From positions 1 through 36,288 of the forward strand of contig CANQUB010000012.1 of NCBI GenBank assembly GCA_947626955.1: DNA of 36,288 nucleotides. Direction: 5' to 3'. Positions 454-35,269 of this stretch are shown in pieces. Below the pieces are notes generated by a model. That model ran no database searches. It was not told where the DNA came from and saw nothing but the letters and a program-made list of their open reading frames with translations. The stretch comes from an uncultured Clostridia bacterium. GTDB taxonomy: Bacteria; Bacillota; Clostridia; Christensenellales; UBA1242. Each line of letters opens with the position of its first letter. Position 1 is the first letter of the stretch. The translations under genes were made by a program, and so were the position numbers.

Positions 454-1575
454 ATGCAAAACAAACAACTTCATGCGTTGAGGACTCTTGCGCTAAAGCT
501 GAACGTCAGCGGGACGGCGGAGGTCCTCGATGAGCAAAAGCTCTATCAAGGGAGCTATGGCTTCGTAAAATTGCAGGTGTATGCGCCAAAGACGCAGAAT
601 ACTGACACGCCCGTGTGTACGGTGTTTTGCACTACGGTGGACGAAAGGGGCGTGCGCGTTGTAAGCACCAAAAACCACTATTTGACCTACGTCGGCGAGT
701 TTGGTTTAAAAGACGGCACATACTTGCTGTTTGAGCGCTATTTGCCCAAAGACTTCACGGCAAAGGTAACCGAACCAAACGGGTTGACGATAACCGTCAA
801 TTATATGGACACCGCGCCAACGTTGGGTGAGGACGGCAGCGTGCTATATGAAGAAAACGGCGTGCAAAAGCGCCACGCGACGGATATGCTTGCGTCAAAC
901 GTATATACGACAACCGTCTATCCGGGCGGGTGGAACGACAACGGCGTCGATTTGGACATCAACTCGGCGGAGGCGGCGCAAATAGGCGTAAACACAAGCG
1001 ATATCGCCGAGCTGCAAGCCGAAGCGCTTGAGTTTAAAAACACGTTGGACGATTTCAAAGCCGATTTGCAGGCCACAAAGGATATTGCATTAAACCGCGA
1101 CAACTCTCGTGTGTTCGCCACCGTGGACGAGATGAACGAGTGGTTGAGCGTTCCGCAAAACGCGCAAAGTCTTGCAGTTGGCTCAAATTTGTTCATCGTG
1201 GACGCGGACGCTCCCGATTTTTGGTGGGACGGCTCTCAACCAATCGAAGAAAAGGACACGACGGACCTATCTATCTATTACACTAAAGACGAGGTCGAAA
1301 ACAAGTTGGTTGAGACAAAGCAGCAATTGCGTGAGCAATACGACTTTGATTATTTGACTACAACGCCCGATTCGAGCGCGCAGCGAGTTATAACGCTAAG
1401 CTATAAAGATTATAAAGAGCTGTCATACAAAGACCCAAACACGCTGTATATTGTGCCCGATGAATCTATATCGCAGAACCAAAATGGCGATATACAGGCT
1501 ATTTTGGCTAGGTTGACAGCCCTTGAGACGCGCGTGAACGAGCTTGAAAATCTTATAAAGGAGGCAAAACAATAA
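454..1575 (+). CDS. Baseplate upper protein-like (BppU-N type) / tail fibre protein
   Basis: SD aggagg; N-terminal beta-rich domain, C-terminal coiled coil (ILARLTALETRVNELENLIKEAKQ). Confidence 0.6.
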   Translation: MQNKQLHALRTLALKLNVSGTAEVLDEQKLYQGSYGFVKLQVYAPKTQNTDTPVCTVFCTTVDERGVRVVSTKNHYLTYVGEFGLKDGTYLLFERYLPKDFTAKVTEPNGLTITVNYMDTAPTLGEDGSVLYEENGVQKRHATDMLASNVYTTTVYPGGWNDNGVDLDINSAEAAQIGVNTSDIAELQAEALEFKNTLDDFKADLQATKDIALNRDNSRVFATVDEMNEWLSVPQNAQSLAVGSNLFIVDADAPDFWWDGSQPIEEKDTTDLSIYYTKDEVENKLVETKQQLREQYDFDYLTTTPDSSAQRVITLSYKDYKELSYKDPNTLYIVPDESISQNQNGDIQAILARLTALETRVNELENLIKEAKQ

Positions 1576-3062
1576 TGAGTATCTACAAAGGCGATAAGCT
1601 GGTGTCTGGCATATTGGGGCCAACGGGATTGCCCGGCGTTAATTCGTCCGGGGGCAGCGACGTGGGGTCGGTGATAATAAACATCTTGCCGGGCGCGTGG
1701 CAAAAACTTGGCGACGAATACATCCGCACCATAACCGCCAACGAACACAAAATGAGCGCTTCTGCGGCGCTGCTTGTGTATACGGCAATCTACAACGAGA
1801 GTTATACCGCGCTTGAAAAATTAGATTGCCAATCCGATGTGTCAGACGACGGCACCGTGGTTTTGCATTCAAACACGGCGTGGGAGGGCATTTGCGTCAT
1901 CGCGGGCGGCATTTCGCAAGCGACGGACGCCGTTGCAAGAAAAGCCATTGATGACGAGCAAAACCGCGCACAAGGCGCCGAGGCCGCTTTAAACGCGGCT
2001 ATAACATCAGAGTCGCAGCGGGCGCAGGGCGCCGAAGAGGCTACTTTAAACAGCGCCAAAGATTATGCGGATAGAAAAATTGCCGAAACGGTTGCCGCGT
2101 CTCAAAGATGGTTGCCCGCCGTAAGCGCGTTTGCAAATCTGCCCGCAATTGTGGACACGTCCACGACATATCTATGCCGCGTAATTGCCGACAACGACGT
2201 GTATCAATGCGTAGCGGGGCAAACGTCTTGGAGCAAATACTCCGACAATACCGACTATATCGACGAAGAGGAATTGTCAGATGCTATTGAACTTGAAAGG
2301 CAAAGAGCGGTCAACGCCGAAGAGACGTTGAGCGGCAAAATAGGCCTTGCTACCGCCAAGTTTAAGTGCTACAAGACAGAGGGCACGGCGAGCGCATACA
2401 CCGTCAACGACGAGGCCTTAGGGCATGAATATGTCAACGGGCTTACGTTTGAAATTTTGCCGCATATCGACTCAAACGAAGCTCCCACGCTTAACGTCAA
2501 TGGGCTTGGTGCGGCGGCGTTCTATGTCAAATCGCTTTCGGGCGCCACCAAGCGGCTGTTTGCAACGCTTACCGAGGGAGCGAGCTATATAGTGTCATAC
2601 AGCGCGTCCGACAGCGGTTGGGTAATACTTAATATAAGCTATCCCGACTATGCTGACGTTGAAGGCGCTCCGCCAATTTACGGCAGTACGGGGCAGTCTG
2701 AGACGGGGCTAATGCACCAAAAAGCTATAACCGAGGCAATAAACGCCGTTAGCGTCGCGGCAAGCGAGGCTCTTTCTGCCGAAACCGAAAGGGCGCAGGG
2801 CGTTGAAAGGTCTCTTGACGAGGCATTGCGTCTTGCGCAATCTACGGCGGCAGCTAAGTACACAAAGCCGACTGACGGCATTCCGACGTCCGACTTGGAC
2901 ACCGCCGCGCAAGGGGCATTGACTAAAGCCGATACGGCGGTGCAGCCAAACGACCTCGCTGCCGTCGCAAAGAGCGGTAGCTATAACGATTTAAACAACA
3001 AGCCCGCTTCGGTGTCTATATCAAAAGACTCATCGGGATATTGGCACATCAACGTGGGCTAA
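1575..3062 (+). CDS. Tail fibre protein
   Basis: Repeated coiled-coil motifs (AEAALNAAITSESQRAQGAEEA), C-terminal GYWHINVG; overlaps the upstream stop. Confidence 0.65.
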   Translation: MSIYKGDKLVSGILGPTGLPGVNSSGGSDVGSVIINILPGAWQKLGDEYIRTITANEHKMSASAALLVYTAIYNESYTALEKLDCQSDVSDDGTVVLHSNTAWEGICVIAGGISQATDAVARKAIDDEQNRAQGAEAALNAAITSESQRAQGAEEATLNSAKDYADRKIAETVAASQRWLPAVSAFANLPAIVDTSTTYLCRVIADNDVYQCVAGQTSWSKYSDNTDYIDEEELSDAIELERQRAVNAEETLSGKIGLATAKFKCYKTEGTASAYTVNDEALGHEYVNGLTFEILPHIDSNEAPTLNVNGLGAAAFYVKSLSGATKRLFATLTEGASYIVSYSASDSGWVILNISYPDYADVEGAPPIYGSTGQSETGLMHQKAITEAINAVSVAASEALSAETERAQGVERSLDEALRLAQSTAAAKYTKPTDGIPTSDLDTAAQGALTKADTAVQPNDLAAVAKSGSYNDLNNKPASVSISKDSSGYWHINVG

Positions 3063-3082
3063 AAATAAATGGAGGTGTAAAT

Positions 3083-3361
3083 ATGGCAACAACAAAAATA
3101 AGCGGAGACCTGTCGTTTTTTGACGGGTCTGTGCCAAAGAGCCTTGCAGAAGAGCTGCATAAACTTGAAAAACCCAGCGACGGCATAAGCAAAGATGACC
3201 TTGAAGAAACCATCAAGCAAAGCCTGGATAAGGCGGACAGCTCGGTGTCATACAACGACGTGCAAAATTTGACAGCGGAGCAAAAACGTCAAGCGCAAGC
3301 CAATATTGGGATATCCGTTTTTGTTGATGTTACGGGGTATTGGCACATCAATACAAAATAG
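3083..3361 (+). CDS. Small tail fibre-like protein (92 aa)
   Basis: SD ggaggtg; ends GYWHINTK, matching the end of the previous ORF. Confidence 0.55.
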   Translation: MATTKISGDLSFFDGSVPKSLAEELHKLEKPSDGISKDDLEETIKQSLDKADSSVSYNDVQNLTAEQKRQAQANIGISVFVDVTGYWHINTK

Positions 3362-3375
3362 TTGCGAGGTGTAAA

Positions 3376-4647
3376 ATGAGCTTTTATCTTAATGGAAATT
3401 TTATCGCAGACGGAACACCGTTTTATATAAACGGCACAAAAATAGATACAAAATTATTTCTAAACGATAACCTAATATGGTCGCCAAACGAGGAGGTAAA
3501 AATTATGGCACAATTGGTTCTTAACAAGATAAGTTATCACGGCAGAGGATGTATTGCGGACCTTCCTAACGAAATTACAAAAAGAAATTTTCAAAAGGCG
3601 TTGATTTGCGTAGACCCGGATTTTGTAAAATTCGATTATGTCCAAAACGTAACGAGCGTCCTTGCCACGGCGGGTATATCTTATGAACTCTATTCCGACA
3701 TTAAATCACCATATCCGACGATAGAAAGTATACAACACGGCGTAGAAACGTATAAACAATCGGGCGCGGACTGCATTATTGCTTTCGGCGGTGCAAATGC
3801 GATGAGCGCGGCAAAGGCGATAGGCATAGTCATAACCAACCCCGAATACGCAGATATACGCTCGCTTGAGGGCGTGGCAAATACGAGAAACGAGAGCGCT
3901 CCGATATTTGCCGTCCCCGCCGAATGTACGGCAGAAGAAATCACATACGTCTATAAAATTAAAGACGCTAAAAAATCGCGCATAATGTTATGTTTAGACG
4001 TCAATGCGCTACCTATTATGGCGTTTGTGGATAGCGACCTGTTCTTGGGCGAAAAGACTGTAATCGCCCAAGACGGGATGTATACGCTGTGCAATGCAAT
4101 AGAGGGATATTTAACAAAAGGCGCATGGGAAATGACGGACATGTTTTGCCTAAAGGCTATTCAGCTTATAGCAGATAATTTGCACGGCGCTGTTGCGCAA
4201 GACGCCAACAGCCTCGAAAAGATTGCGCTGGCGCAATACATATCGGGCATGGGATGGGGCAATGCCGGCGTCGGCTTGGCAAACGCTATGGCAGAACCTC
4301 TCGTCGCGATATACGATATGCCTAAGGGGGTTGCTTGCGGCATTTTACTGCCCGCTGTTATGGAATATAACGCCCCTGTAACGGGTGAAAAATATAAGGA
4401 TATAGCAAAAGCCATGGGTCTTGAGGGCGTGGACAGCATGGGACAAGATGAATATCGTAAAGCGGCTATAGACGGTGTAAAACGGTTGAGCGCAGACGTC
4501 GGCATACCCGAGAGCTTGAAAGAGTATCTAAAAGCAGAGGACATTTCATATTGCGCGCAGTCTGCGGCAAACGGAGTTTATACGTCCGGTAACCCAAGAG
4601 AGACCAGCGAGGAAGAAATTGCGCAAATTTATAGAGCTTTGCTGTGA
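3376..4647 (+). CDS. Short fibre-type domain fused in frame to a degenerate iron-containing alcohol dehydrogenase (FucO-like) domain
   Basis: Residues 1-43 MSFYLNGNFIADGTPFYINGTKIDTKLFLNDNLIWS; then MAQLVLNKISYHGRG...AIEGYLTKGAW...GEKYKDIAKAMG...GNPRE aligns along FucO from its start to its C-terminus. Confidence 0.85.
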   Translation: MSFYLNGNFIADGTPFYINGTKIDTKLFLNDNLIWSPNEEVKIMAQLVLNKISYHGRGCIADLPNEITKRNFQKALICVDPDFVKFDYVQNVTSVLATAGISYELYSDIKSPYPTIESIQHGVETYKQSGADCIIAFGGANAMSAAKAIGIVITNPEYADIRSLEGVANTRNESAPIFAVPAECTAEEITYVYKIKDAKKSRIMLCLDVNALPIMAFVDSDLFLGEKTVIAQDGMYTLCNAIEGYLTKGAWEMTDMFCLKAIQLIADNLHGAVAQDANSLEKIALAQYISGMGWGNAGVGLANAMAEPLVAIYDMPKGVACGILLPAVMEYNAPVTGEKYKDIAKAMGLEGVDSMGQDEYRKAAIDGVKRLSADVGIPESLKEYLKAEDISYCAQSAANGVYTSGNPRETSEEEIAQIYRALL

Positions 4648-4657
4648 GGAGGTAACA

Positions 4658-5278
4658 ATGAAATATCAACTTATAAAAGGCGTTCAAAAGGGCGTAATAG
4701 TTGACCCAACGCCCGTATTAAAAGATGTCAAGGACACCTTCAAGGTGTCCTTTATTTTGCCTTGCGTGGGCGCATATATCGCATTGTTTAAAGGCGAGGA
4801 CGGCATCGAATATAAGGCGGCATTGCGCAACGGCGAGGTGATTTTTCCAAAGGCGCTACTTGCAAAAGAACAAACGGTCGAGGTGTGCGTCTGCATGATT
4901 GATAGCGATAAGATTGTAGATGCATGGCAGTGTCAGCCTCTCAAGGTAGGGGCGTTTCTGCAAATGAGACAAACAATGCGGCAGCTGTCGCCGGGTGTAA
5001 CTCTAGACGCGGTGTATCAACGCATTGCCGAGCTTGAAAACGACCATGCGGCCATCAGCAAAGATTTCGACGACCTAAAACAAAAATACGTCGCGCTGTT
5101 GCAAAAAAACAACATGGTTATAAAAGAGCTTACTGACCATATCGCTGGTTATACGCACATAAATGAACAGTTAAGTCTCAAAAATGACGAATATGCCAAT
5201 AAGTTAGCCCTGTTTGAAGCCGAGTTGCAGGATATAAAAACACAGGTGTTGCGCATCTTTGAAGCCTTAGAACAATAA
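4658..5278 (+). CDS. Phage structural/baseplate protein with C-terminal coiled coil
   Basis: SD gaggaggt; MKYQLIKGVQKGVIVDPTPVLKDVKDTFKVSF...; follows the fibre genes. Confidence 0.55.
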   Translation: MKYQLIKGVQKGVIVDPTPVLKDVKDTFKVSFILPCVGAYIALFKGEDGIEYKAALRNGEVIFPKALLAKEQTVEVCVCMIDSDKIVDAWQCQPLKVGAFLQMRQTMRQLSPGVTLDAVYQRIAELENDHAAISKDFDDLKQKYVALLQKNNMVIKELTDHIAGYTHINEQLSLKNDEYANKLALFEAELQDIKTQVLRIFEALEQ

Positions 5279-5358
5279 TCGCAAAACGCAGGTGTGTCTG
5301 CAAAAAAAAATAATTCAATGCCACGTCTTGCACACAGGGCACGGCAAAAGGAGTTTTT

Positions 5359-5865
5359 ATGAACATCGAGCAAATCAAAGAAATCATCAATCCAATCGTC
5401 ATCTTTTTGACCAGCGGCACGGGCGCGTTGCTTATCGGCGTGGTGGTCAAAGCTATTGTCGCCGCCGTTGCTACCGTCAAGTCTAAAAAAGCGGCAAAGC
5501 TTACCGAGGCGGATAAACAGGACATCGCCAACAAGTTGCTGCAAGCAATGCAGGGTGGCCTCAAGGTGGATATGGACGCCGAACTTGACCGCGCGACCAA
5601 CAAACGAATGACCGCAATGGAAGAACGTCTGAATGAGTTTAGCGAGCTTATGAATAAGGTGATAAACGTGTCATCCGCGACAATGTCTGCCGTAGGCGAC
5701 TTCAAAACGATATCACAGGAAAGCCGTGAAAAAATCAAGGCGTTATCGGATGACGTTTCGTCTGCAAGAGCGGCTAAGTTTGAAGTGCCGGCAACGCCTA
5801 CGGTTGAGCTTAAAGTTCCCGCAGAAACAAGCTCAACTGGTGTTGACAAAAAGCCTAAGTATTGA
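5359..5865 (+). CDS. Phage membrane protein, holin-like (one N-terminal TM plus helical tail)
   Basis: MNIEQIKEIINPIVIFLTSGTGALLIGVVVKAIVAAVATVK then a charged helical region; SD aaaggag. Confidence 0.5.
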   Translation: MNIEQIKEIINPIVIFLTSGTGALLIGVVVKAIVAAVATVKSKKAAKLTEADKQDIANKLLQAMQGGLKVDMDAELDRATNKRMTAMEERLNEFSELMNKVINVSSATMSAVGDFKTISQESREKIKALSDDVSSARAAKFEVPATPTVELKVPAETSSTGVDKKPKY

Positions 5866-5881
5866 TTTATGGAGGCAGATA

Positions 5882-6394
5882 ATGAAACACAATACGATTA
5901 CTTTGCTGCTTAAGGTTTTTGAGTATATCGCGCTTATTGCGCCGACCGCAGCTTATGCTATTTACAGCTATGTAACTACTTTGCAACACACAATGTCAAC
6001 GTCAAGCAAGGGTTGTTTTTGGACGCTGATTGCCGTGGCTATCATTGTAGGCGTGGTGTATGCGATATTTCGCAAACATTACGACAGATATGTGCAAGGT
6101 TACGTCCAACAGAAAACGGATCTCGAGACGAACCCCGCCAATGAACTATTGATTAAAAAGGTGGCGGAAAAAAAGGCGATAATCGAAAACGTAGATTATA
6201 TTGTCATTCTCATACCCGTTTTAATTGCGATGACGGTCGTTGCCGCCTTTCAAACCGCTATAGAACAATTGCTTGTTTTACTCAGCATTGTTGCGGGTAG
6301 CCTTGTCGCCAAGGTGGGTTTGCACCTTGTATGTATACGCGTGCAAAAGAAGTACATGCTCAAAGCCATTGCGGATAAGAAGAAGGAGGAATAA
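5882..6394 (+). CDS. Multi-TM membrane protein (holin candidate)
   Basis: ATG 5882 after ggaggc; about 4 hydrophobic segments. Confidence 0.5.
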   Translation: MKHNTITLLLKVFEYIALIAPTAAYAIYSYVTTLQHTMSTSSKGCFWTLIAVAIIVGVVYAIFRKHYDRYVQGYVQQKTDLETNPANELLIKKVAEKKAIIENVDYIVILIPVLIAMTVVAAFQTAIEQLLVLLSIVAGSLVAKVGLHLVCIRVQKKYMLKAIADKKKEE

Positions 6395-6397
6395 GCT

Positions 6398-7387
6398 ATG
6401 CCCGAAATAGATAAAGACCGTCAAAGAACTTTTATATCTTCCACAAAGTCTATTATCAATATAGCTATAGTGGTGTGCGTGTCGATTGCGTTTTTGCTGG
6501 TCGGCATGTTTGTGCTGGACGGGGACAACGGCGCTCTTCAAACTGATAAGTCTTATTGGATGCAAAAGTTTTTGAGCGGCCTCGGCAGTCTACTTATAAT
6601 GTTTTCCTGCGCCAACATTGCAGAGGAAACCCTCAAAAAGCGCTCACAGCCATTTGCGGAAAAAATCGAAAGATTGGACGAACACTATGCTACCGTAATG
6701 CAAAACGGTGAAGTAGAAGCGCTCGAGCTGTTCTTGACAAATAAAAATAAACGCAATAAATATCGCGCACATTTGCGAAAATACAAATTTCTTTTGCGGT
6801 GGTTCGGCAAAATAGGCAAAAAAGAAAAAATAAAAGCATATTGCGAAAACAAGCTTGTCATGTCGCCGGCAGAAGTGTGGGATATGGAATCGCCGAAGAC
6901 ATTGTATCCAAAACTCACAGTTGATAAACTGTTTGCGGGGGCGTTGACAGTGCAAGATAGGGACGAATCGTCTGATATCAATATGCACCGCATGCGATAT
7001 GTGCTTGAAAAAATGCTGTGGAAAGCAATTTTTATTGTGGGCTTCGGCTGCTATGTACCCGACCTTGTGTACCACTTTACCGCATTCACGGTCGATATGA
7101 TTGTGCCTCTTATTTTCAAATTTGTAGTGATTTTGTGGGCGGTATATTCGGGCATAGTGTTCGGCTATCAAATGCTCGACCGTCTGCTTGTCGTTCTCAA
7201 ACGCAAGCTTGTGCTTTTTTCGGAGTTTCGCACCCGTACTGACGACGATACGGAAAAGACTTTGTATGACCGTTACAAAGTGGAAATTGAACCGGACAAA
7301 TTCGTTGAGAATATCAAAAAACGCCTAGCCGAAGAGGCATCTTCCGACACGCTTGCGCTGCCTGCAATTACAGGTTTTCGCGATTGA
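6398..7387 (+). CDS. Multi-TM membrane protein, unknown function
   Basis: 329-aa ORF, SD aaggagg; hydrophobic segments around residues 20-45, 60-75, 210-260. Confidence 0.55.
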   Translation: MPEIDKDRQRTFISSTKSIINIAIVVCVSIAFLLVGMFVLDGDNGALQTDKSYWMQKFLSGLGSLLIMFSCANIAEETLKKRSQPFAEKIERLDEHYATVMQNGEVEALELFLTNKNKRNKYRAHLRKYKFLLRWFGKIGKKEKIKAYCENKLVMSPAEVWDMESPKTLYPKLTVDKLFAGALTVQDRDESSDINMHRMRYVLEKMLWKAIFIVGFGCYVPDLVYHFTAFTVDMIVPLIFKFVVILWAVYSGIVFGYQMLDRLLVVLKRKLVLFSEFRTRTDDDTEKTLYDRYKVEIEPDKFVENIKKRLAEEASSDTLALPAITGFRD

Positions 7388-7420
7388 AATGTTGAATTTT
7401 TTGTGATATATTCACATAAC

Positions 7421-7467
7421 CACAATATCTAGTGGTATTTTTAAATATAAAACCACTAGATATTGTG
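7421..7467. repeat. Perfect 16-bp inverted repeat, 15-nt loop
   Basis: cacaatatctagtggt (7421-7436) / accactagatattgtg (7452-7467). Confidence 0.9.
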
Positions 7468-7504
7468 CTATTGCGTCCCTTATTGTCTCCACCAGCGTAT
7501 TCGG

Positions 7505-7550
7505 AAAACCGCCAAAATATCTACTGTTTAGTAGGACTTTGGCGGTTTTT
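7505..7550. terminator. Bidirectional rho-independent terminator
   Basis: aaaaccgccaaa...tttggcggtttt between the plus-strand late operon and minus-strand integrase. Confidence 0.7.
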
Positions 7551-7647
7551 CTTTGTTTTTGTAAGCCTTGATTTTTGGCTATTTTATGCTGATTTTAGCC
7601 CATTTTTGATATTTTTTGTGATATTTTTTGTGATATTTTTTTTCGGG

Positions 7648-8760
7648 CTAATCTAAAGATTTTACTGCCAAAACAAGGTCTTGCGGCGTGAGGTGCGCAT
7701 AAGTTTTTACGACTTGCTCGACAGTGTCGCCTATCAGAGCGGCGACTACAACAAAATTTGTGCCGTTTGAAATGAGCATGGATACATAAGAATGTCTGAA
7801 ATCGTGCAACCGGATTTTAGGGAGCCCCGCAAGCACGGTATACTTGTTTTGCGCATTTTGGATAGCGTTTAGACTTATTGGCGCGTCCCCGCCGAAAATA
7901 TATTTATTTGGCAGATTGTTGTCTTGTTTATATTTTAGCCACTCGTTTAATATTGCGATGGTATGTTGGGGGAGCGGAACGGTATGTAGCTTATAGTTTT
8001 TGGTTTCGGTAATTTTATAAGCGCTGCCGTCCATTGTCTTGCGAGTATAAGTGCTCTTGACTTTGATGGCTTGCCCGTCAAAACATTCGGGCGTGAGGGC
8101 TTGCAGCTCGCCAATGCGCAGGCCGCTGAAAAACAGCACGTTGAACAGCGCCTTATATTTCAAGTCGGTTATTTGCCCGCTGAACTTTTCAAAGTCAGCT
8201 CTTGTCCAGATGGTATATTCTCTCTTTTGCAGTTTCTTTTTGGGAGGGTCTACATCCTCAAATATATTCTTGATTTTATATCGCTTTTGGCACCACAGTA
8301 AAAACGTCTTAAAATAGTTTCTGACGCGGATGAGCCTTTCAACGGAGTACGGCTCGCCGTTATTCTTCTTTTTGGCAAAAAGTTGCTCCTGCCACGTCAA
8401 AAGGTCGTCCGTTTTCAGAGTCGCCAAATCTTTTTTGGCGAAGAAATCGTCTACGTGCGTAGAAAACACGTGCGAGATGGTATACAGCGTGCTCTCTTTG
8501 GTTGAGACCTTTAAATAACCGTAATAATTATCGCGAGCGAACTCATAAAGGACCTTGCTCTTGCCGTCATATCGTTTAGGTGGAGCGATATAATGCGCCA
8601 TGAACTCGGTATAAGCAGCCTTTGCAAGGCGTTTGGTTTGATAGCCGCAAAGAGCCTTTTGAACCTCGCGGCCGTCTTCATTGACAATTCTAAAAATGAT
8701 GTCATAAACGACACCTTTCTTTTTTGTTTGCCTCTCTCGGAATGAAAATGAATAAGACAT
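7648..8760 (-). CDS. int: Tyrosine-type phage integrase
   Basis: LFFSGLRIGELQALTPE, LPKIRLHDFRHSYVSMLI, EQVVKTYAHLTPQD: catalytic R / H-x-x-R / Y pattern. Confidence 0.95.
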   Translation of the reverse strand: MSYSFSFRERQTKKKGVVYDIIFRIVNEDGREVQKALCGYQTKRLAKAAYTEFMAHYIAPPKRYDGKSKVLYEFARDNYYGYLKVSTKESTLYTISHVFSTHVDDFFAKKDLATLKTDDLLTWQEQLFAKKKNNGEPYSVERLIRVRNYFKTFLLWCQKRYKIKNIFEDVDPPKKKLQKREYTIWTRADFEKFSGQITDLKYKALFNVLFFSGLRIGELQALTPECFDGQAIKVKSTYTRKTMDGSAYKITETKNYKLHTVPLPQHTIAILNEWLKYKQDNNLPNKYIFGGDAPISLNAIQNAQNKYTVLAGLPKIRLHDFRHSYVSMLISNGTNFVVVAALIGDTVEQVVKTYAHLTPQDLVLAVKSLD

Positions 8761-8764
8761 AAAA

Positions 8765-9085
8765 TTACCTGCCCGCACTCGGAATAATACCTATGGCATT
8801 GAACTCCTCTTTCCACCTTTTTGGAGTCATCGTAAAGCGATTATACCCGACCTCTTCGGTTTTAATTATGCGCATTTGCACGGAATTAAAATTCGGATTG
8901 TGTATCTCCTCCCACAGACTGTAAAACTCAAATGAATCTTTATTGGACATCCAATTGCGCACAACTCCCGACGGGTCTTGCGGATTGTAGAACTTTGCCA
9001 TATCCGTAATTGAGATATAGTCTTCTTCATCGACCTGTTTGTATCTGACATCAATTCCTTTTACAATAACTTCTTTGTTTGTCAT
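8765..9085 (-). CDS. KilA-N domain protein, apparently C-terminally truncated
   Basis: EEDYISITDMAKFYNPQDPSGVVRNWMSNKDSFEFYSLWEEIHNPNFNSVQ...NAIGIIPSAGR*; stops at the usual AGR of KilA-N. Confidence 0.8.
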   Translation of the reverse strand: MTNKEVIVKGIDVRYKQVDEEDYISITDMAKFYNPQDPSGVVRNWMSNKDSFEFYSLWEEIHNPNFNSVQMRIIKTEEVGYNRFTMTPKRWKEEFNAIGIIPSAGR

Positions 9086-10886: not shown

Positions 10887-11378
10887 ATGACACTAAGAGA
10901 ATTATTGAAGAAAGACATCAATGTAGACTTTGAAAGCAATTTCACCGACGATTGGGCTATTGCATTTGTCGGACCTGTCAATCTGACTAAAGGTGGCGAG
11001 GCGCTATTCTCGGCTATCCTTGACAAAGAAGTAGACTTTATTGACGACGACCATGCTCAACTGATAGTTGACACCGACGAGGAGGACCTCTTGGCGAATC
11101 GCTTGTTTCGTTTCGCAGCCGGCTATTGTAGCGTAGAGATTTACGATAAGCTGTTTGTTGATGAACCCGTTCATAAAGCCATATCACGGGACGAGTTGTA
11201 TTACCTTTGCAATAAATATCAATGGTTCACCGCCGGAGACATTGACCAATATAACAAACTGTTTCAGAAGTGCGAAGCGGGAGCCAGTCTTGAAGAACTC
11301 GCCTTGATAATATGGCTATGCAGTAGCAACGCAACCGAAGATGAGATTTTGAAAATCTTGAAGACAGATTGTAATTGA
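10887..11378 (+). CDS. Hypothetical early protein (163 aa)
   Basis: SD gagggag; C-terminal ELYYLCNKYQWFTAGDIDQYNKLFQKCEAGASLEELALIIWLCSS. Confidence 0.6.
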   Translation: MTLRELLKKDINVDFESNFTDDWAIAFVGPVNLTKGGEALFSAILDKEVDFIDDDHAQLIVDTDEEDLLANRLFRFAAGYCSVEIYDKLFVDEPVHKAISRDELYYLCNKYQWFTAGDIDQYNKLFQKCEAGASLEELALIIWLCSSNATEDEILKILKTDCN

Positions 11379-11403
11379 TATAAAGAGAGGTAAAAGGCAA
11401 GAG

Positions 11404-11434
11404 AAAAACCTGCCACCAATAGACAGGCTTTTCA
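11404..11434 (-). terminator. Terminator for the minus-strand 43-aa gene
   Basis: Minus strand AAGCCTG...CAGGTTTTT, one G-U pair then T-run. Confidence 0.5.
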
Positions 11435-11484
11435 AAAAGTTTGAGACACCGAATTATCCTCCTCTCAATGATGTGGTAAGAAAA

Positions 11485-11616
11485 TCACTTACCTTTACGG
11501 GTTTGCGATAGAGCGCTTGCAGCACAAGTTTTAGAGGCCTTGCTGGTGCGACCATCGCGCAATACCTTGCTTGCAGTGCTTGCTACACGATGAGATGTTT
11601 GCTTAGTATTTGCCAT
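11485..11616 (-). CDS. 43-aa basic Ser/Ala/Lys-rich small protein (not in ORF track)
   Basis: Minus strand with aggaggt SD: MANTKQTSHRVASTASKVLRDGRTSKASKTCAASALSQTRKGK*. Confidence 0.75.
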   Translation of the reverse strand: MANTKQTSHRVASTASKVLRDGRTSKASKTCAASALSQTRKGK

Positions 11617-11676
11617 TGCCTTTTACCTCCTTTATATAGATTATATATAGTATACACTATTTTAGGAGCAAGTCAA

Positions 11677-11883
11677 GTGGAAAAAGAAAAGGTAAAAGAG
11701 CAATTTATAACATTGCTGAAACAATCAAATATGTCCATTCAACGAATAGCCAAGGCGAGCGGGGTGAACCGTGGGACAATCAACAATTGGTATTACGGAA
11801 ACACAATGCCTACCATAGATAAGGCGGTTGCCGCATTGGAAGCCGTGGGATATAAGGTAACAGTGTCGGATAAGGAGGACTGA
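11677..11883 (+). CDS. HTH regulator
   Basis: GTG start after aggag; KQSNMSIQRIAKASGVNRGTINNWYYGNTMPTIDKAVAALEAVGYKV. Confidence 0.75.
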   Translation: MEKEKVKEQFITLLKQSNMSIQRIAKASGVNRGTINNWYYGNTMPTIDKAVAALEAVGYKVTVSDKED

Positions 11884-11885
11884 AC

Positions 11886-12080
11886 ATGTTTAAGTGGATG
11901 ATATTTGAGAATTATATCCCCGGCGAGACCGAACGTGTATACCATGTCGGGCGCCAGATCAGGGAGGGAGAGCCGTTGCACAGCGGGAACATCGAATGGA
12001 GCGGCAGCGATCTCATGACTCGAAGTGAAGCAGAACAAGAGGCGGAGCGCCTCAATAAGGAGACTAGAGATGACTTTTAA
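11886..12080 (+). CDS. Hypothetical small phage protein
   Basis: SD aaggagg; 64 aa; in operon. Confidence 0.55.
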   Translation: MFKWMIFENYIPGETERVYHVGRQIREGEPLHSGNIEWSGSDLMTRSEAEQEAERLNKETRDDF

Positions 12081-12279
12081 AAAACTGTTGGAGTCAAAAA
12101 ACATTACTCAAGTAGAACTAGCAAGGGAACTTGGGCTTTCGCAAAGTGCAATATCACTTTATACTAGCGGGAAGCGAGCGCCACGCATTTTGTTATTGCC
12201 GCGAATTGCAGAAGCGCTGGGCTGCACTATGGAAGAGTTGCTCAAGTGTTTTGCGGACGGCAAGGAGGTAGACCAATGA
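12070..12279 (+). CDS. HTH (Xre/Cro) regulator
   Basis: MTFKKLLESKNITQVELARELGLSQSAISLYTSGKRAPRILLLPRIAEALGCTMEELL. Confidence 0.8.
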   Translation: MTFKKLLESKNITQVELARELGLSQSAISLYTSGKRAPRILLLPRIAEALGCTMEELLKCFADGKEVDQ

Positions 12280-19633: not shown

Positions 19634-20008
19634 GTGATGAGAGTGGCTAAACAAGACGATAATTTGATACCGCAAGCGCACAAGTTAACTGTCGATGAAC
19701 AGTCGAAAGGCGGCAAAAAAAGCGGCGACGCGCGTCGCAAGAGAAAAGAGTTTAAAACGCTGCTTGAAACAGCGCTATGCGAACAGGTCGAAGTCAACGA
19801 AAAGGCAATGAGCAGGGCAGAAGCTATTGTTATTAGTTTGATAGCCAAAGCGGCGAGGGGTGATGTGCAAGCGTTTTTGGCTATACGAGACACAATAGGT
19901 GAGAAGCCCAAAGACAAGGTGGATGTAAAGGTGAACAACTCAGAAAGGGCAGCATATCTAAAGGCGGCAGAGGCAATCAAGACGTCAAAACGAGGCGATA
20001 GCGAATGA
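19634..20008 (+). CDS. Terminase small subunit-like protein
   Basis: HKLTVDEQSKGGKKSGDARRKRKEFKTLLETAL; immediately upstream of large terminase. Confidence 0.65.
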   Translation: MMRVAKQDDNLIPQAHKLTVDEQSKGGKKSGDARRKRKEFKTLLETALCEQVEVNEKAMSRAEAIVISLIAKAARGDVQAFLAIRDTIGEKPKDKVDVKVNNSERAAYLKAAEAIKTSKRGDSE

Positions 20009-21423
20009 AATTTAACGAAATAATTTGGACGGACAAAATGAGGGCAATCTTCGCCGACACCTCGCCCGTCATTCACCTTTGCGGCAGCATGGGGACGTCC
20101 AAGACCTTGGTCGCGGGGCTGTTGTTTTTTGACCGTATAATCAACGCGCCCGCGAACGTCAACCAGTTTGCCATAATAGGCGTATCCTCGGTGCTTGTCA
20201 AGAGAAACTTCGTGGATAAGGCCGACAGCCTTTATAACATCCACAGAGGGCTGTGCAGCGATTACAGCGACGGCGACAAGGTCGCGGCAGGCTCTCACTT
20301 TTGCATAAACGCGCCTACGGGCAAAAAAATAGTCTATCTCGCGGGGGCGGACAACAAGAGCAGTTATACCAACATTTTGTCGCTTGACCTTGGCGGGATA
20401 TTGCTTGACGAGCTGTCGGTGCTACACCCGGACGTGTGGCGCGAGGCTTATGGGCGCGTCCAGCGTCTTTCATACCCGGGCTGGCTTATCACCACCACCA
20501 ATGGTGGTAACCCTACGCAGGAGTTTTATACCGAGCTTGTAAATCACGCGACGGTGCAGTTTGCCGATACCGTGCCCAAAATAGAGCTGGACGACATGAT
20601 ACAAGACCGCCCGGACGAGCATTATTATCACTTCAATCTGCGAGACGACTGCCCACATAAGACCGCAGAGCACACTCAAAAATTGATGAACAGCTATCCG
20701 GTGGGCAGCTTTTATTATTACAGCAAGATACTTGGTTGCAGGGGCTACAGCGAGGGCGCCCTCTATGCGCCGCTGTTGGCAGACACCAAGACCGTAAATA
20801 TTGCAAATCTTAATCTTAACGCTTTTGAAGAAGTGATTGCGGCGGTGGACGTGGGCGCCAGCGTGAATGGGGACGACGCTTCGCGGTCTCACACAATAAT
20901 CGCCTTGGGCGGGTATACGCGGGGCTATCACAGGGTGGTGGTTATTGCCTCAAAGAAGATTGCTAGCATAGAGCACAGGGACATTATAGAAGAGGCGGAA
21001 AATTGGCTGTATCCGTTTTGGCTTAAGTTTTATGGCAAGCTGACGGCTATCATCATTGACAACGCAGATTATAAGCTTGTGTCCACGTGGCAGAACCACA
21101 GCCGATGGCGCGGCAAAATAACCGTGCGAGGCTGCATAAAAAACCACAAAAAGTTGTGCCCCAACTTGAGCACAAGAGCGGCTATCAAGTGTCAGCTTAT
21201 GATGACAAGCAAGCAATATCCGACGTCTCGAATTGTTTGGTGTGATGAGGACATGCTGAAAGCGCATCGTCAGATATTGCAAGACAAGGACGGCTCAGAG
21301 CTTGACCAGGGCGATATTTGGCAAGACTTTGCAGACTGCCTATCGTATATCATTTTGTGGCGCATGCCGCAGATAATGGCGGACTCAGCCCAAAACGAGA
21401 CGCAAAAAATCAAATTTTTTTAG
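20005..21423 (+). CDS. terL: Terminase large subunit
   Basis: LCGSMGTSKTLVAGLLFFDRI (Walker A-like), GGILLDELSVLHPDVW (Walker B-like), AAVDVGAS...IIIDNADY nuclease-like. Confidence 0.9.
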   Translation: MKFNEIIWTDKMRAIFADTSPVIHLCGSMGTSKTLVAGLLFFDRIINAPANVNQFAIIGVSSVLVKRNFVDKADSLYNIHRGLCSDYSDGDKVAAGSHFCINAPTGKKIVYLAGADNKSSYTNILSLDLGGILLDELSVLHPDVWREAYGRVQRLSYPGWLITTTNGGNPTQEFYTELVNHATVQFADTVPKIELDDMIQDRPDEHYYHFNLRDDCPHKTAEHTQKLMNSYPVGSFYYYSKILGCRGYSEGALYAPLLADTKTVNIANLNLNAFEEVIAAVDVGASVNGDDASRSHTIIALGGYTRGYHRVVVIASKKIASIEHRDIIEEAENWLYPFWLKFYGKLTAIIIDNADYKLVSTWQNHSRWRGKITVRGCIKNHKKLCPNLSTRAAIKCQLMMTSKQYPTSRIVWCDEDMLKAHRQILQDKDGSELDQGDIWQDFADCLSYIILWRMPQIMADSAQNETQKIKFF

Positions 21424-22192: not shown

Positions 22193-22215
22193 CAAACGTA
22201 GAGGTGAGTGCGATT

Positions 22216-23922
22216 ATGGAATTTAAAAATCAATATCAGATGAATTTAATATCTGCCGGCAAGACCAAACTATACAATCAAAGCGCCTTATGGGCATACA
22301 ACACCGCAAAATATCGCGCCCTCCTCTCAAATGACCCTACAATCATTAAGCGATTTTATAGAGAGGAGTCGGGCGTTTTTATGCTGGACGCCCACAATTT
22401 TTTTGAGAAAACGCGCTCGTTTTATTACGGCGACGGATTTAATGAAAACGCAGAAGAGTTCTTTGGCATTATCCCGATGATATGCGAAAGCATTGCAAAA
22501 ATGGTGTGCGGGGCGGGATATGAATTTTCGCCGTCTATCCCGGACGACATAAAGCAAAGGCTGCAAGTTATCTTGGACGACAACAATTTTGACACCGATT
22601 TTCCGAAAGCCAGCGTCAAAGAGACGATAGGCTTGGGCGACGCCGCTTGGCATGTGTTTTTCAACCCCGAGCTAAGCAGTTATCCGTTGATAGAGCTTGT
22701 GCCGGCAGAAAGGCTGTTTTTAAAACGAGTGAGCAACAGGATAGTTGAAATAGGCATTAAACAGCAGGTCTATATAAACGGCGAGGCGCAACCTTATGAG
22801 CTGCACACTATATACAAGAAACGCCGCAAAAAGATAGAAGTTAATGAGGTCTCTAAGTGGGTGGACGACGGCGTCGTGCAAAAAATAAAGATTTGGGACG
22901 GCAGACAATATATAGAGAACAACCCGCCGTTGCAGGATAAGATTTTTAAGGCGTACAACCTCAGCAGCGCCGAAACGGTTTTGCCGCTTGTGGATATCCC
23001 CGTCATATATTTGCCCAACACGCTCAATCACGCGCAGTCTATAGACAACAACGCGCGCCCTTATGGCATTGTGTTCGGCCTTGAAAGCGTCTCATCGGCT
23101 TTGGACGAGATATTGTCAAACTGTGTGGATACAGTGCGTAAGAGCTTTCCGTTTCTACTTATCGATGAACAAATGGTGCCAAGCGATTTGCGAGGCGACA
23201 AAAATCTTAGCGAATTTTCAACGCGCAAACACTCATATATGCTGCCCAAAAACGCGCAGGACGCAGACAAGCTGTTGCAACAGGTGCAAGCGAAGCTCAA
23301 TACGACCGAGTTTGTCGAGGCGGCAAAATTTCAGATAAACATCGCGCTTAATAAAGCGGGTATCAACGCCGCCACTTTGGGCTTGCAGTTGTCGGGACAT
23401 GTTGAGGCCGAAGCGACGCAAAACGCCAAAGAACGCAACAGTATCCGTACGCGCAACGCCATTGCAGCCGATTATGAAAGATACATATCAAATTTGTTTT
23501 CGGTGCTGTTGCAATACGAAGATTATATCAACGGCAACCCGATTGCGGTAGATCGCGCCACGGGTGAAGAGGCGCTCATCGCCGAAGACTATCACGGCAT
23601 AAAGGTCGCGTTTAGAAAATACATCGTTGACACTCCCGAAGAAGTATCCGAAGTGCTGGCACGCAAGGTGCAGGCAAATTTGATGAGCATATATGCTGCC
23701 GTCAGAGAACAGCATCCCGATTGGGATGACGAGGCTATCTATGACGAGGCAAACCTCATCTATGCCGAAAAGCAGGGCATGGCAATGCAGGTAGAGCCGG
23801 GCGAAGAAGCTGTTGACAACACGCTCAAGCCTTTGGGCCCGCATAAGGAGCCTGATGACGAGCAGCCGCAAGAAGAGGCCCCAAAAGACGAAAAAGAAGC
23901 GGAGGAAACGACAAATGGATAA
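22216..23922 (+). CDS. Portal protein (SPP1 gp6-like)
   Basis: Position after terminase; 568 aa; FGIIPMICESIAKMVCGAG, GIVFGLESVSSALDEILSN, acidic C-terminus. Confidence 0.85.
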   Translation: MEFKNQYQMNLISAGKTKLYNQSALWAYNTAKYRALLSNDPTIIKRFYREESGVFMLDAHNFFEKTRSFYYGDGFNENAEEFFGIIPMICESIAKMVCGAGYEFSPSIPDDIKQRLQVILDDNNFDTDFPKASVKETIGLGDAAWHVFFNPELSSYPLIELVPAERLFLKRVSNRIVEIGIKQQVYINGEAQPYELHTIYKKRRKKIEVNEVSKWVDDGVVQKIKIWDGRQYIENNPPLQDKIFKAYNLSSAETVLPLVDIPVIYLPNTLNHAQSIDNNARPYGIVFGLESVSSALDEILSNCVDTVRKSFPFLLIDEQMVPSDLRGDKNLSEFSTRKHSYMLPKNAQDADKLLQQVQAKLNTTEFVEAAKFQINIALNKAGINAATLGLQLSGHVEAEATQNAKERNSIRTRNAIAADYERYISNLFSVLLQYEDYINGNPIAVDRATGEEALIAEDYHGIKVAFRKYIVDTPEEVSEVLARKVQANLMSIYAAVREQHPDWDDEAIYDEANLIYAEKQGMAMQVEPGEEAVDNTLKPLGPHKEPDDEQPQEEAPKDEKEAEETTNG

Positions 23923-30816: not shown

Positions 30817-33800
30817 ATGCAAAATTATTATTGGAAAGTGTATTTGTGGAAAGACGGCAAGAGGGGCGACGACCTCACCAAATACGTCATGGCGCCTATC
30901 TTTTTAGAGGATAAGCTTGACGAAACGCTTGATACGGGCGAGATTATTTTAAAACGCATGCCCATATCAACCAAAACGGCTTACCCGCCCAAAACCAAGT
31001 TCCGCATAGAATGCTACCTTGACAAGGAGCACACCCAACAGCTTGACCATTGGGATATGGTTGTTGAACACGACGATGTGGAAGAGTACGTCGGTTGCCC
31101 GGACATCTGCACCCACCGCATACACCTCATAGAAGCGTCCGTTATAGCCCAAGGCATGCACGTTGACAACATAGCGCTTACCTACGAGCTGCAGGACGTC
31201 GATTTGAATTATAAGGTGGTAAATGACAGTTCTGGCGACTCACTAGATGCACTTGATAGAATTGAGGCGCAAGGCAACGGATGGGAACGTATAATACATG
31301 AAAATCAAGTAATAACTAGAGAAATGCTTGATGAAGTGGAAAAAACGGGCAACAATGAATTTGTATATTTTATCAATTCATATAATTATGTATGGCGCGA
31401 CTATGATGATTTAAAGTCATTAAAGACAAGGTATAACGCCTTAAATTCACATAGCATTGAGTTTACAATTCCGACTTTAATAATACAAGGTGCTAAAGAC
31501 GGGGAATGGGTGGACATTTGCGAGGCTCAAACTGAAACAACAATAATTATAAAACATTGTAGAGGTGATGAGATTTTAAGTAGTAAAGAACAAAAAATTA
31601 TTTGTGGGCCCACTAATTTATCTGAAACAACAAGTTATCCCGAATTATATCAAGTAAGAGAAATGTCGGGTCGTCGAGAGTATTATCCTACATCAATAGA
31701 TGGAATATCTTCTTACACTTATCTTGAAAACGGGACTTGGAATGAGCCCTTTGATTTTTCCGATCATTATTCACTCATTGACGGAGGTCCGACTCGTTCT
31801 TGTATATTTACATGGGAAAATGCTCAAGCAAAAAGTAAACGAATTACACTTGAAACGGAAATATTAACCGATGCACAACTTGCAGCGCATGAATATTTTA
31901 AATATGAAATTCATACAAGGGTGTATGATGAGAAAGTGTGGGTGGATGCCGAAATTGATGGGGATACACAGCATGTAATGTTACAAAGGGTATTTCCAAC
32001 TTATTATGAGACGAGGTCGCAAATATGGTACTATAATGGCCAATTTCATGTTTCCAGTTATCAACTTGAAAATACTCCTACATATCACGAATGGGTAAAT
32101 TGCAACGATATTTATTTTACAGCAGATTTTGAAGTAGGGGACACATCAACATTTGTTGACGGAGGTGCATTCCTGAAAAAAGCTGCGCCATATAATTGTC
32201 TACAGTTTTTGCAAAAGGCGTTGCTTACTGTCGACACACAAGTACTAGATATAAGGACGGAGTCTCTTGACGGATTAAAAGACAAATATCCCATATATGT
32301 GGATAATTCAGCACCAGATTATTGGAAAAATCAACTTGAGTCATGTCAGATGAATGAAACGGTGTTTGAGCAAAAAAACTTATGGGAAGTGCTCATTCAG
32401 ATAGGCTATTATCGTCATGCTATTCCGTATTTGGAATTTGCGGAGGATGGGACAGACCGCTTTGTGTTAAAGTTTCATCAGCTTGGCGACACAAAGCAAA
32501 AGACGGATAGTAACACCAAAATAACGGTGTTCAATAGTCGGAATCTATCCGATTATTTCACGCAATATGACAGCTATGTTACCAACTTTTTTTCACCTCA
32601 AAACGAGGTGGAAGAGTGGCTCGTTCCTAAAACCAGCGACAGCTCATATCTTGTGTCAAACGACACAGCAGAAATTCATACTAAGTATCCGATACAAGGA
32701 ATCAAGGAATTTGATTTAATTTATAATGGGCGTTCACATTCGGCATTAAACATGATTTTTGAGAAGGCGGTGTATCAAGTTTTAACGCCTTCAATAGAAA
32801 TAAGACCATCGAAGGCAAGCGCATTATATTATTCTTTAGGGGATAACAAAATTTTAGGATTAACTTATATTCCCCCGAACAAAAATAACGGGGATGACTC
32901 ATTTGCCTTAAAAAATATTTTAAGCTTATTATTCGGAACGAACCCTAACGGGGATATAAAATTTAATGATATACTGTTCCATATTAAATATATAGCAAAG
33001 GATAGCCTTAGAATATCGGAAGTACGCCCAGATATATTTAAATACATGAGAAGTTCTATGTATGAGAAATATCCGCACCATGAGCAGTTTTACGGCCAGC
33101 AGGATAAAATTGTGGACAGCGAGAGGTTTAGCGCCAACCTGTTTGGCAAGCTGATAAGGGTCGGCAATGCCGTGTATCAGCGGCAAGAGTATGTCAGCAA
33201 TGCGCAAGACAGGAAAGAGAGCGGCGACCTTGTTATGCTGGGCGTAGAACCCTACTATGTTACAGCGGTTGAAAATGAATGTTATGCGGACGCAATGTTG
33301 CAAAAGGTAACTTACTCTAAAAACTTCAACCAGCTGTCTAATATTGTAACAATTCCTAGCGAGCCTCGATTTTATGAGGTGAGCGAAAGGTCAGAAGTTA
33401 GGCGAGAAGTCCGCATTTTGGACTTTTTAACATTAACAACCAATGAGAAAGCGCCTCAAAAATCATCGATGTTCATTAAGGATAAATATTGGCAAAATTT
33501 TGTAAGAGGAACTATTTTTGCGGATACAGCATTAGAACCCCCGAATTTTGCTTATACAAGATTTCAGGTCGATAAAAAGCGTAAGCGTGCAGGATGTTCT
33601 ATTCCCGATGAAAAGTTGTTTCCAAGTTGTGAGGTTGAACGAAAAGGGGAAAATAGTATAGTTCCTAAAGCTTCTAGTGATCATATCGATGTTGTTTGCC
33701 CTCTCATGTGTTTCCCCCTTAAAAACGCAATTGTTTTTGAATGGGATATGGACGACAATTTTAAGGCTGGAGATAGTATTGATACTCAAACAAACGAGGC

Positions 33801-34407
33801 AAATGATACACTAGATCAAGCTTATTTTTCGATGACTCCTGTTAGATATTGCGACATCTTTGGGCGCGCTGATTTGTTTAGATTTGGGCTGTTTTATAAA
33901 AAGAATTGGGATATAAATCAAATTCGACGTCTCCCGTTTGTGGACGAGTCGGACGATTTTTTTAATACAAACGAAGTAATGTTTGAATTGCCGCCCAATT
34001 ATGCTATTGCACTTGATAAAGATAATAGAGAGGCATTATCTTTTAACTATCAAATAAATATGGTGCATAACGACCAGTTTTTAACTTTTGCAAATTTATT
34101 TGGATCAAAGGGTAGTCGATTGCGGATGTGTTTATTAAACACGGAGGTTCCTAAGTTCTCTGAAACTGTCCCACTAAAGGAACCAAACTTAATATATGAT
34201 AATGTATCATATTCTTTTGACGAAGGCAGCAATGCATTGCATGTAAAAATCGAAGTCCCAACAGGGATAAATATTAGCCAAGTAAAATCAATTGTTTTAT
34301 ACGAGGAGGATGCAGCATCTAAATATGCATATATATGTAGAAATGTTGCAAATAGAGATGATAATGACAAACTTAAAGATTGGTGGATATACCCAGCTAT
34401 TGATTAA
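30817..34407 (+). CDS. Tail hub / tail tip protein (1196 aa) with variable C-terminal domain (CTD1)
   Basis: N-terminal hub-like MQNYYWKVYLWKDGKRGDDLTKYVMAPIFLEDKLDETLDTGEIILKR; C-terminus homologous to 35270-35752. Confidence 0.75.
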   Translation: MQNYYWKVYLWKDGKRGDDLTKYVMAPIFLEDKLDETLDTGEIILKRMPISTKTAYPPKTKFRIECYLDKEHTQQLDHWDMVVEHDDVEEYVGCPDICTHRIHLIEASVIAQGMHVDNIALTYELQDVDLNYKVVNDSSGDSLDALDRIEAQGNGWERIIHENQVITREMLDEVEKTGNNEFVYFINSYNYVWRDYDDLKSLKTRYNALNSHSIEFTIPTLIIQGAKDGEWVDICEAQTETTIIIKHCRGDEILSSKEQKIICGPTNLSETTSYPELYQVREMSGRREYYPTSIDGISSYTYLENGTWNEPFDFSDHYSLIDGGPTRSCIFTWENAQAKSKRITLETEILTDAQLAAHEYFKYEIHTRVYDEKVWVDAEIDGDTQHVMLQRVFPTYYETRSQIWYYNGQFHVSSYQLENTPTYHEWVNCNDIYFTADFEVGDTSTFVDGGAFLKKAAPYNCLQFLQKALLTVDTQVLDIRTESLDGLKDKYPIYVDNSAPDYWKNQLESCQMNETVFEQKNLWEVLIQIGYYRHAIPYLEFAEDGTDRFVLKFHQLGDTKQKTDSNTKITVFNSRNLSDYFTQYDSYVTNFFSPQNEVEEWLVPKTSDSSYLVSNDTAEIHTKYPIQGIKEFDLIYNGRSHSALNMIFEKAVYQVLTPSIEIRPSKASALYYSLGDNKILGLTYIPPNKNNGDDSFALKNILSLLFGTNPNGDIKFNDILFHIKYIAKDSLRISEVRPDIFKYMRSSMYEKYPHHEQFYGQQDKIVDSERFSANLFGKLIRVGNAVYQRQEYVSNAQDRKESGDLVMLGVEPYYVTAVENECYADAMLQKVTYSKNFNQLSNIVTIPSEPRFYEVSERSEVRREVRILDFLTLTTNEKAPQKSSMFIKDKYWQNFVRGTIFADTALEPPNFAYTRFQVDKKRKRAGCSIPDEKLFPSCEVERKGENSIVPKASSDHIDVVCPLMCFPLKNAIVFEWDMDDNFKAGDSIDTQTNEANDTLDQAYFSMTPVRYCDIFGRADLFRFGLFYKKNWDINQIRRLPFVDESDDFFNTNEVMFELPPNYAIALDKDNREALSFNYQINMVHNDQFLTFANLFGSKGSRLRMCLLNTEVPKFSETVPLKEPNLIYDNVSYSFDEGSNALHVKIEVPTGINISQVKSIVLYEEDAASKYAYICRNVANRDDNDKLKDWWIYPAID

Positions 34408-34924
34408 GAGGTGGAAAATTTGAAAAAATCAACTTCTCTTCATATCTTGTGGTTTTCTCGTATAAAACAATATATCCGCTTGCCTCAATAAAAGTACATG
34501 AAGGATAAGTTCTTTTTATTCTAGTCCAATCATCGGCATCCATGTATGGCATAACATATTGTTCTCTTTGTTCTATAAGGAACCAATCATCTTCCAATGG
34601 CGTTCCGGACAAAAATAAATTGTGATTTACATACATGGTGTGGTCCCCATGATAATATGCACTGAACTTGTAAAATTCAGACGTGCTGTCTTTTTCGGTA
34701 TAAGAAGCGGAAATAGACAATATGTCGTTGGTACCTTTGTAATAAGTTACAGACCAATCTATATTATTGATGGTTTCATTAAAATGATATGTGATTAAGT
34801 TCTGTGTAGGTTTATCCAGTTGCTCCGCATTTTCGTCGGAAGCGCATCCCGTCAGGATGAAGCACAGCGCGCAGCTGAGCATTACGATAGTGGTGATAAA
34901 ACAAATGAACTTTTTCATAGCCAT
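34397..34924 (-). CDS. Lipoprotein 1 (variant mature domain A)
   Basis: MAMKKFICFITTIVMLSCALCFILTGC lipobox; gaggt SD; stop overlaps the hub 3' end by 11 bp. Confidence 0.85.
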   Translation of the reverse strand: MAMKKFICFITTIVMLSCALCFILTGCASDENAEQLDKPTQNLITYHFNETINNIDWSVTYYKGTNDILSISASYTEKDSTSEFYKFSAYYHGDHTMYVNHNLFLSGTPLEDDWFLIEQREQYVMPYMDADDWTRIKRTYPSCTFIEASGYIVLYEKTTRYEEKLIFSNFPPLNQ

Positions 34925-34937
34925 TACCTCTATGAAA

Positions 34938-34966
34938 ATAATAAGCACAAACGTCAAAATTGTCAA
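34938..34966 (-). promoter_or_regulatory. Sigma70-type promoter for lipoprotein 1
   Basis: Minus strand TTGACA (34966-34961), 17 nt, TATTAT (34943-34938). Confidence 0.8.
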
Positions 34967-35013
34967 CAAGCGGCAGAAAGGAGGAAGAAAATTTATTTCG
35001 GAGGAGGGCGAAA

Positions 35014-35244
35014 ATGAAAGACTATGAATATTTCAAAGCGCACCGTGATGAGCTGATAGAGAAATACCCCAACAAGTTTGTTGTCATCAAAAGTTGCGCC
35101 GTCGTCGCGGTGTATGACGCGTTTATGGAGGCATACAACGAAACGGTCAAGACCGAGGCGCTTGGCACGTTTATCATCCAACAGTGTGTAGACGATGACA
35201 GCACGGCGGCGCATTTTCATAACAGCAACGTTAAGTTTGCATGA
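35014..35244 (+). CDS. Small DUF5678-like protein, second identical copy
   Basis: Same as 161-391. Confidence 0.7.
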   Translation: MKDYEYFKAHRDELIEKYPNKFVVIKSCAVVAVYDAFMEAYNETVKTEALGTFIIQQCVDDDSTAAHFHNSNVKFA

Positions 35245-35269
35245 GAAACACAATCAACAAAAACTTCCG

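Follow-up and report, generated by a model that had tools for sequence, protein, structure and literature searches.

Pseudoenzymes and modular phage tail fibres are each already known, but an origin from an iron alcohol dehydrogenase (Fe-ADH) is known to us for no phage tail protein. Literature searches retrieved no earlier case of an Fe-ADH pseudoenzyme in a phage or of an Fe-ADH in phage tails. The enzyme closest to the protein described here is lactaldehyde reductase FucO (EC 1.1.1.77; E. coli structures 1RRM and 2BL4), with which it shares full-length homology and a two-domain fold, whereas its Fe ligands, His267, Asp102, Asn151 and most pocket residues are replaced. In FucO, His267 binds the catalytic water (PMC10324492). 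Maleylacetate reductases are likewise members of the Fe-ADH superfamily with an altered active site, but they carry the signature LHHKLCHTLGG with an essential lysine (PMC5741723), while the present protein lacks this catalytic His/Lys signature and has lost the NAD loop. ErcA, an Fe-ADH-like regulatory protein of Pseudomonas, is another case of the Fe-ADH fold outside plain metabolism; unlike our protein, it is chromosomal and adjoins a sensor kinase, and the ErcA family model NF041833 scores the present protein with 215 bits against a cut-off of 550. From the genomic side, the nearest systems are the phage receptor-binding cassettes with DGRs or Gp10_C collar-type fibres, which occupy the identical slot in related phages, and phage DGRs mainly target receptor-binding proteins (PMC10743442). 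In contrast to these cassettes, the slot described here holds an enzyme-derived protein without reverse transcriptase or TR/VR repeat.

A FucO homologue in the tail region of a temperate phage

The window, i.e. the whole stretch of 36,288 nucleotides analysed here (G000:C12:1-36288), encodes an integrase, a CI-like repressor, RecE/RecT, a DnaD-like loader, a portal protein and tail genes, and by this gene content it is a temperate tailed phage, of gut type. Binning, together with related prophages found within the same family of bacteria, is the basis of its host assignment. The following genes mark the phage outside the region of interest:

7648-8778, minus strand: phage integrase
9108-10154, minus strand: CI-like repressor
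22204-23922, plus strand: portal protein
30817-34407, plus strand: large protein of the tail region, with conservation among related phages

The FucO-like gene and its surroundings comprise:

454-1575, plus strand: conserved fibre/baseplate-type protein, 5' border of a variable slot, found in four related phages
1575-3062, plus strand: tail-fibre-like protein, coiled-coil-like, with C-terminal GYWHINVG
3083-3361, plus strand: short fibre-tip-like protein with C-terminal GYWHINTK
3366-3371, plus strand: putative ribosome-binding site GAGGTG for ATG 3376, from sequence
3376-3504, plus strand: in-frame 43-residue leader MSFYLNGNFIADGTPFYINGTKIDTKLFLNDNLIWSPNEEVKI with three FYLNGxxI-like repeats
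3490-3497, plus strand: putative ribosome-binding site GAGGAGGT for ATG 3505, stronger than that of ATG 3376, from sequence
3505-4647, plus strand: putative pseudoenzyme of the FucO fold with replaced active site, 380 amino acids and TGA, from homology, Pfam and superposition
4658-5278, plus strand: conserved 3' border protein with an N-terminal beta sandwich and a long coiled coil
5359-5865, 5882-6394 and 6398-7387, plus strand: three small membrane/coiled-coil ORFs, matched in relatives by ORFs of similar size and identical order

The initial annotation had described ORF 3505-4647 as an intact frame that aligns along FucO, and both statements proved correct. The frame is open throughout, with neither stop codon nor frameshift, and phmmer matched it to E. 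coli FucO over residues 3-377 with an E-value of 1.6e-100; chance similarity was thus discarded as an explanation (E 1e-100). Identity to FucO is 43-44%, with about 44% to the E. coli enzyme in the structural alignment. The protein clearly passes the Pfam cut-offs for Fe-ADH (PF00465, 104 bits against 31.3) and ADH_Fe_C (PF25137, 160 bits against 27) and, together with its two-domain fold, belongs to the Fe-ADH superfamily. The structure prediction and superposition proposed earlier yielded a confident model (mean pLDDT 82, at least 90 in 228 residues) that superimposes on FucO with Z 57.4 and an rmsd of 1.3 Å over 377 residues; as the input alignment consisted of intact relatives, this marks the fold as compatible with FucO, short of proof. 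In a tree, the branch leading to the protein is long, with 1.66 changes per site where the median terminal branch has 0.14. It groups with proteins from other families of the order and not with most FucO proteins of the host family, its exact placement among clostridial FucO proteins being left unsettled by the tree.

The same frame remains open upstream to an in-frame ATG at 3376. Ribosome-binding sites precede both ATG 3376 and ATG 3505, so that the product may comprise 423 amino acids including the 43-residue leader, and a shorter form of 380 amino acids from the internal start, i.e. two products, is possible. The leader is a possible tail-attachment module. No relatives of it were detected by searching, and its weak genome matches were rejected as unrelated proteins; its GC content (0.32) differs from that of most neighbours and its structure model is of low confidence, so the link between gene and tail is a positional one. 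At the other end, the stop codon of the FucO-like gene and the ribosome-binding site of the gene that follows overlap, in the style of a compact operon. Just 3' of the FucO-like gene, positions 4730-4752 in the first part of ORF 4658-5278 combine a stem of 10 bp and a T-rich tail, an arrangement that looks terminator-like on both strands.

Replacement of the active site

Comparison with FucO revealed that all four Fe ligands are replaced (D196 to Y193, H200 to N197, H263 to N260 and H277 to K274; FucO residue first) and that H267 became E264, so that each of the five metal and proton-relay residues is changed. The NAD loop GGGSPQD reads GGANAMS, and PTTAGTAAE reads PAEC-TAEE with one residue deleted. 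These residue and motif assignments, made by eye in the initial annotation, were all confirmed. Further changes affect D102, N151, V153, V164, V166, F254, L259 and C362. With the 14 documented active-site residues and the FucO numbering taken from PMC10324492, 13 of the 14 are changed as compared to 20 of 76 other conserved sites (Fisher p 3.7e-6), and this enrichment is stable across conservation thresholds from 0.9 to 1.0. The earlier claim that every active-site element had been selectively lost therefore holds as a strong enrichment and not in its literal form, since T149, a nicotinamide contact, is the sole active-site residue left unchanged and the 20 sites elsewhere were altered as well.

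In the 79 aligned relatives of full length, which come from clostridial genomes and others, the metal site is kept and the active-site positions named above are invariant, bar a single change in one of them. D-H-H-H-H is present in 85 of the 86 further FucO or Fe-ADH matches in the alignment; ligand loss is accordingly no general feature of the family. The exception (L123) is the FucO of a bacterium belonging to a different family within the order; it shows a lone D196 to Y change and retains every His ligand, and the change may be an error of sequencing or a loss at an early stage. The features of a lactaldehyde reductase, namely the Fe2+ ligands Asp196, His200, His263 and His277 and the NAD loop GGGSxxD with Asp102, are missing from the window protein, which also stays below the FucO equivalog cut-offs of NF007911 (462 against 537 bits) and TIGR02638 (425 against 523 bits); eight intact relatives pass these cut-offs with 553-689 bits. 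From these replacements we infer that the protein is catalytically dead. The replacements at conserved sites gain five Tyr/Trp residues, whereas neutral runs gain 1.7 on average and reach five in 8 of 500 cases; this agrees, if weakly, with the idea of a new binding pocket. DGR hypermutation was considered as the cause of the losses and rejected, as neither RT nor TR/VR is present and several ligand changes require substitutions at non-adenine bases (GAY to TAT, CAY to AAY).

The same slot in related phages

Four viral contigs carry homologues of both border genes (IMGVR 3300006143_000054, 3300006141_000055, 3300006149_000058 and 3300006201_000066). The first of these matches the window at 80-86% in the terminase-region gene 20005-21423, at 67% in the portal gene and at 42-75% in the genes that follow. 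In these four phages, homologues of the 5' border protein are 32-46% identical over its N-terminal part, and those of the 3' border protein are 39-43% identical. The fold of the latter matches phage tail/baseplate models and resembles baseplate/fibre proteins. A search of the bacterial family for the 3' border gene recovered the window itself and, beyond it, only two weak matches that were limited to the coiled coil. The fibre gene 1575-3062 had no detectable homologue in the related phages, and no tblastn similarity links the three small ORFs at 5359-7387 to their positional counterparts.

The content of the slot varies among relatives. It comprises Gp10_C/collar-type fibre ORFs together with small chaperone-like ORFs, which in one phage (L150) lie between the fibres; in two relatives, a collagen-type fibre and, just before the 3' border gene, an ORF resembling a tail-assembly chaperone (PF16778, E 1e-4, under the curated cut-off); and in another, a DGR consisting of a variable protein, a reverse transcriptase and a TR/VR pair, with 22 of 24 TR/VR differences at template adenines. 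In a more distant prophage relative, the fibre gene is followed by a second DGR, which includes Avd and RT (15 of 15 differences at adenines). The two DGRs with adenine-specific VR/TR differences noted in related phages are those of L156 (6176-6480 with RT 6589-7692) and L085 (10102-10842 with RT 11113-12249). In L154, a fibre protein of the same slot (5181-7697) ends in many short Cys/Tyr-rich repeats (YYNCxxLxNC) of a family unfamiliar to us.

As the slot of relatives holds collar-type fibres or DGR-diversified proteins, the interval between 454-1575 and 4658-5278 looks like a receptor-binding cassette, and the FucO-like gene lies where a receptor-binding protein is expected, in a variable distal-tail cassette. 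The initial annotation had offered a virion structural or ligand-binding module as one option, and the DGR-variable, Gp10_C and collagen-type fibres found in this slot favour it. Features of a DGR variable protein were not found, with no RVT_1 in the genome bin and no TR/VR repeat at 1500-5400 of the window. The FucO-like gene is absent from the tail regions of these relatives, and other Fe-ADHs of bacterial genomes are located outside the tail region.

Searches for further copies turned up neither a homologue that shares these losses nor an intermediate, and the gene in the window is the sole copy known; a scan of viral contigs with the protein as query gave no relative, and a scan with the alignment gave three loci only, 44-45% identical and with intact ligands where covered. 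A DNA pattern of a conserved FucO segment had no match, and among BFVD models no viral protein of the Fe-ADH fold appeared under E 0.001. Matches in phage collections were dismissed as phage relatives: some are unverified or contaminated, and the closest have intact sites and may be bacterial DNA.

Possible origin and role of the protein

The observations support repurposing rather than decay, as had been proposed before: the frame is open, the hydrophobic core is kept and the changes cluster in the active site. At 55% protein identity, saturation of synonymous sites stands in the way of direct dN/dS, and simulations were used in its place. The protein keeps 107 of 112 always-hydrophobic columns, compared with 91.9 ± 5.0 under neutral simulation, where none of 500 runs reached 107. 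Simulations matched for changed invariant sites accumulated on average 4.7 stop codons, frameshifts excluded, and only 1% of runs stayed stop-free. A second simulation with columns outside the active site and three transition biases gave the same answer. These calculations take the changes at invariant sites as a clock of neutral time; if such changes were positively selected, conservation of the core may reflect short time, and repurposing would still be implied. A passenger gene in neutral decay would fit the 20 altered conserved sites outside the active site and a change rate that is near flat across conservation classes of at least 60%, but the uninterrupted frame and a core retained beyond the neutral simulations make it very unlikely.

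Other roles for a protein with constrained scaffold and replaced active site have to be weighed. A helper of tail assembly made late in infection, i.e. a fibre-assembly chaperone or scaffold that does not bind a receptor, is suggested by the chaperone-like ORFs between the fibres of L150 and by the PF16778-like ORF that directly precedes the 3' border gene of two relatives. Those ORFs have 100-170 amino acids, however, while the window protein has 380, a two-domain enzyme fold and an in-frame beta-rich leader, and we regard this role as unlikely. The initial annotation had also proposed a decoy or dominant-negative partner of the host enzyme. Such a cytosolic protein, tuning host metabolism through an Fe-dependent dehydrogenase (FucO or AdhE), could draw on the still recognisable N-terminal strand region (LN..YHGRG), and Fe-ADH-like ErcA offers a regulatory precedent (NCBIfam NF041833; Hempel 2013, as represented in citing papers). 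However, the host bin (93% complete) encodes no other Fe-ADH (PF00465) and the host genus only distant ones with 25-28% identity; the gene moreover lies in a presumably late tail operon with tight junctions, so that the proposal is disfavoured and appears quite unlikely. A rebuilt enzyme that needs no metal could have emerged as maleylacetate reductases did from Fe-ADHs. These are NADH-dependent reductases of the Fe-ADH superfamily that use other essential residues (PMC5741723), and the cleft of the window protein did gain polar and charged residues. Yet the segment corresponding to LHHKLCHTLGG reads LANAMAEPLVA, without the essential Lys and His residues, and the NAD loop GGGSxxD has likewise disappeared, which makes a rebuilt metal-free enzyme highly improbable. 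Finally, the gene is known from one copy in one metagenome bin, as would fit an assembly chimera of a bacterial gene and a phage contig. Against this artefact stand the tight junctions in operon register on both sides, the failure to find a bacterial fucO with these losses, a GC3 of 0.48 within the phage's own range and the self-closure of the contig by a 77-bp overlap; we consider it extremely improbable.

We thus favour, at roughly even odds, an exapted enzyme scaffold that serves as a tail component, most likely as a receptor-binding or tip module. A clostridial fucO would have been captured by a temperate phage into its variable distal-tail cassette, where it provided a ready-made soluble two-domain scaffold. 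Selection would then have kept the FucO fold and dropped catalysis, with iron site, NAD loop and substrate pocket all replaced. The product, probably of 423 amino acids with the beta-rich leader and perhaps also in the 380-residue form, would be expressed late alongside the tail genes, attached to the tail by its leader and present in the virion, and its interdomain cleft or outer face would contact the host surface and bind a receptor. The more specific version, in which the scaffold became a receptor-binding protein whose old NAD/iron cleft is the ligand pocket for a host-surface molecule, is tentative and on balance doubtful. FucO is a dimer whereas phage receptor-binding proteins are mostly trimeric, and we count this against the favoured reading. 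If the tail reading, which is built on a single sequence, is true, a gut bacterium's metabolic enzyme can be converted into a tail protein, and the locus would represent a before-and-after case of an active site converted while the fold persists.

Structure of the contig

The terminal 77 bases of the window are identical at both ends. Such ends are the usual mark of a circular assembly, and the contig is therefore most likely a complete phage genome, closed at about 36.2 kb; an exact direct repeat of 409 bp (1-409 and 34854-35262) makes the circular closure less certain. Adjoining this repeat, 35195-35752 partially duplicates the C-terminus of the large protein encoded at 30817-34407 in the tail region. 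Two lipoprotein-like ORFs with a common signal peptide lie near the repeat on the minus strand, at 34397-34969 and 35764-36282.
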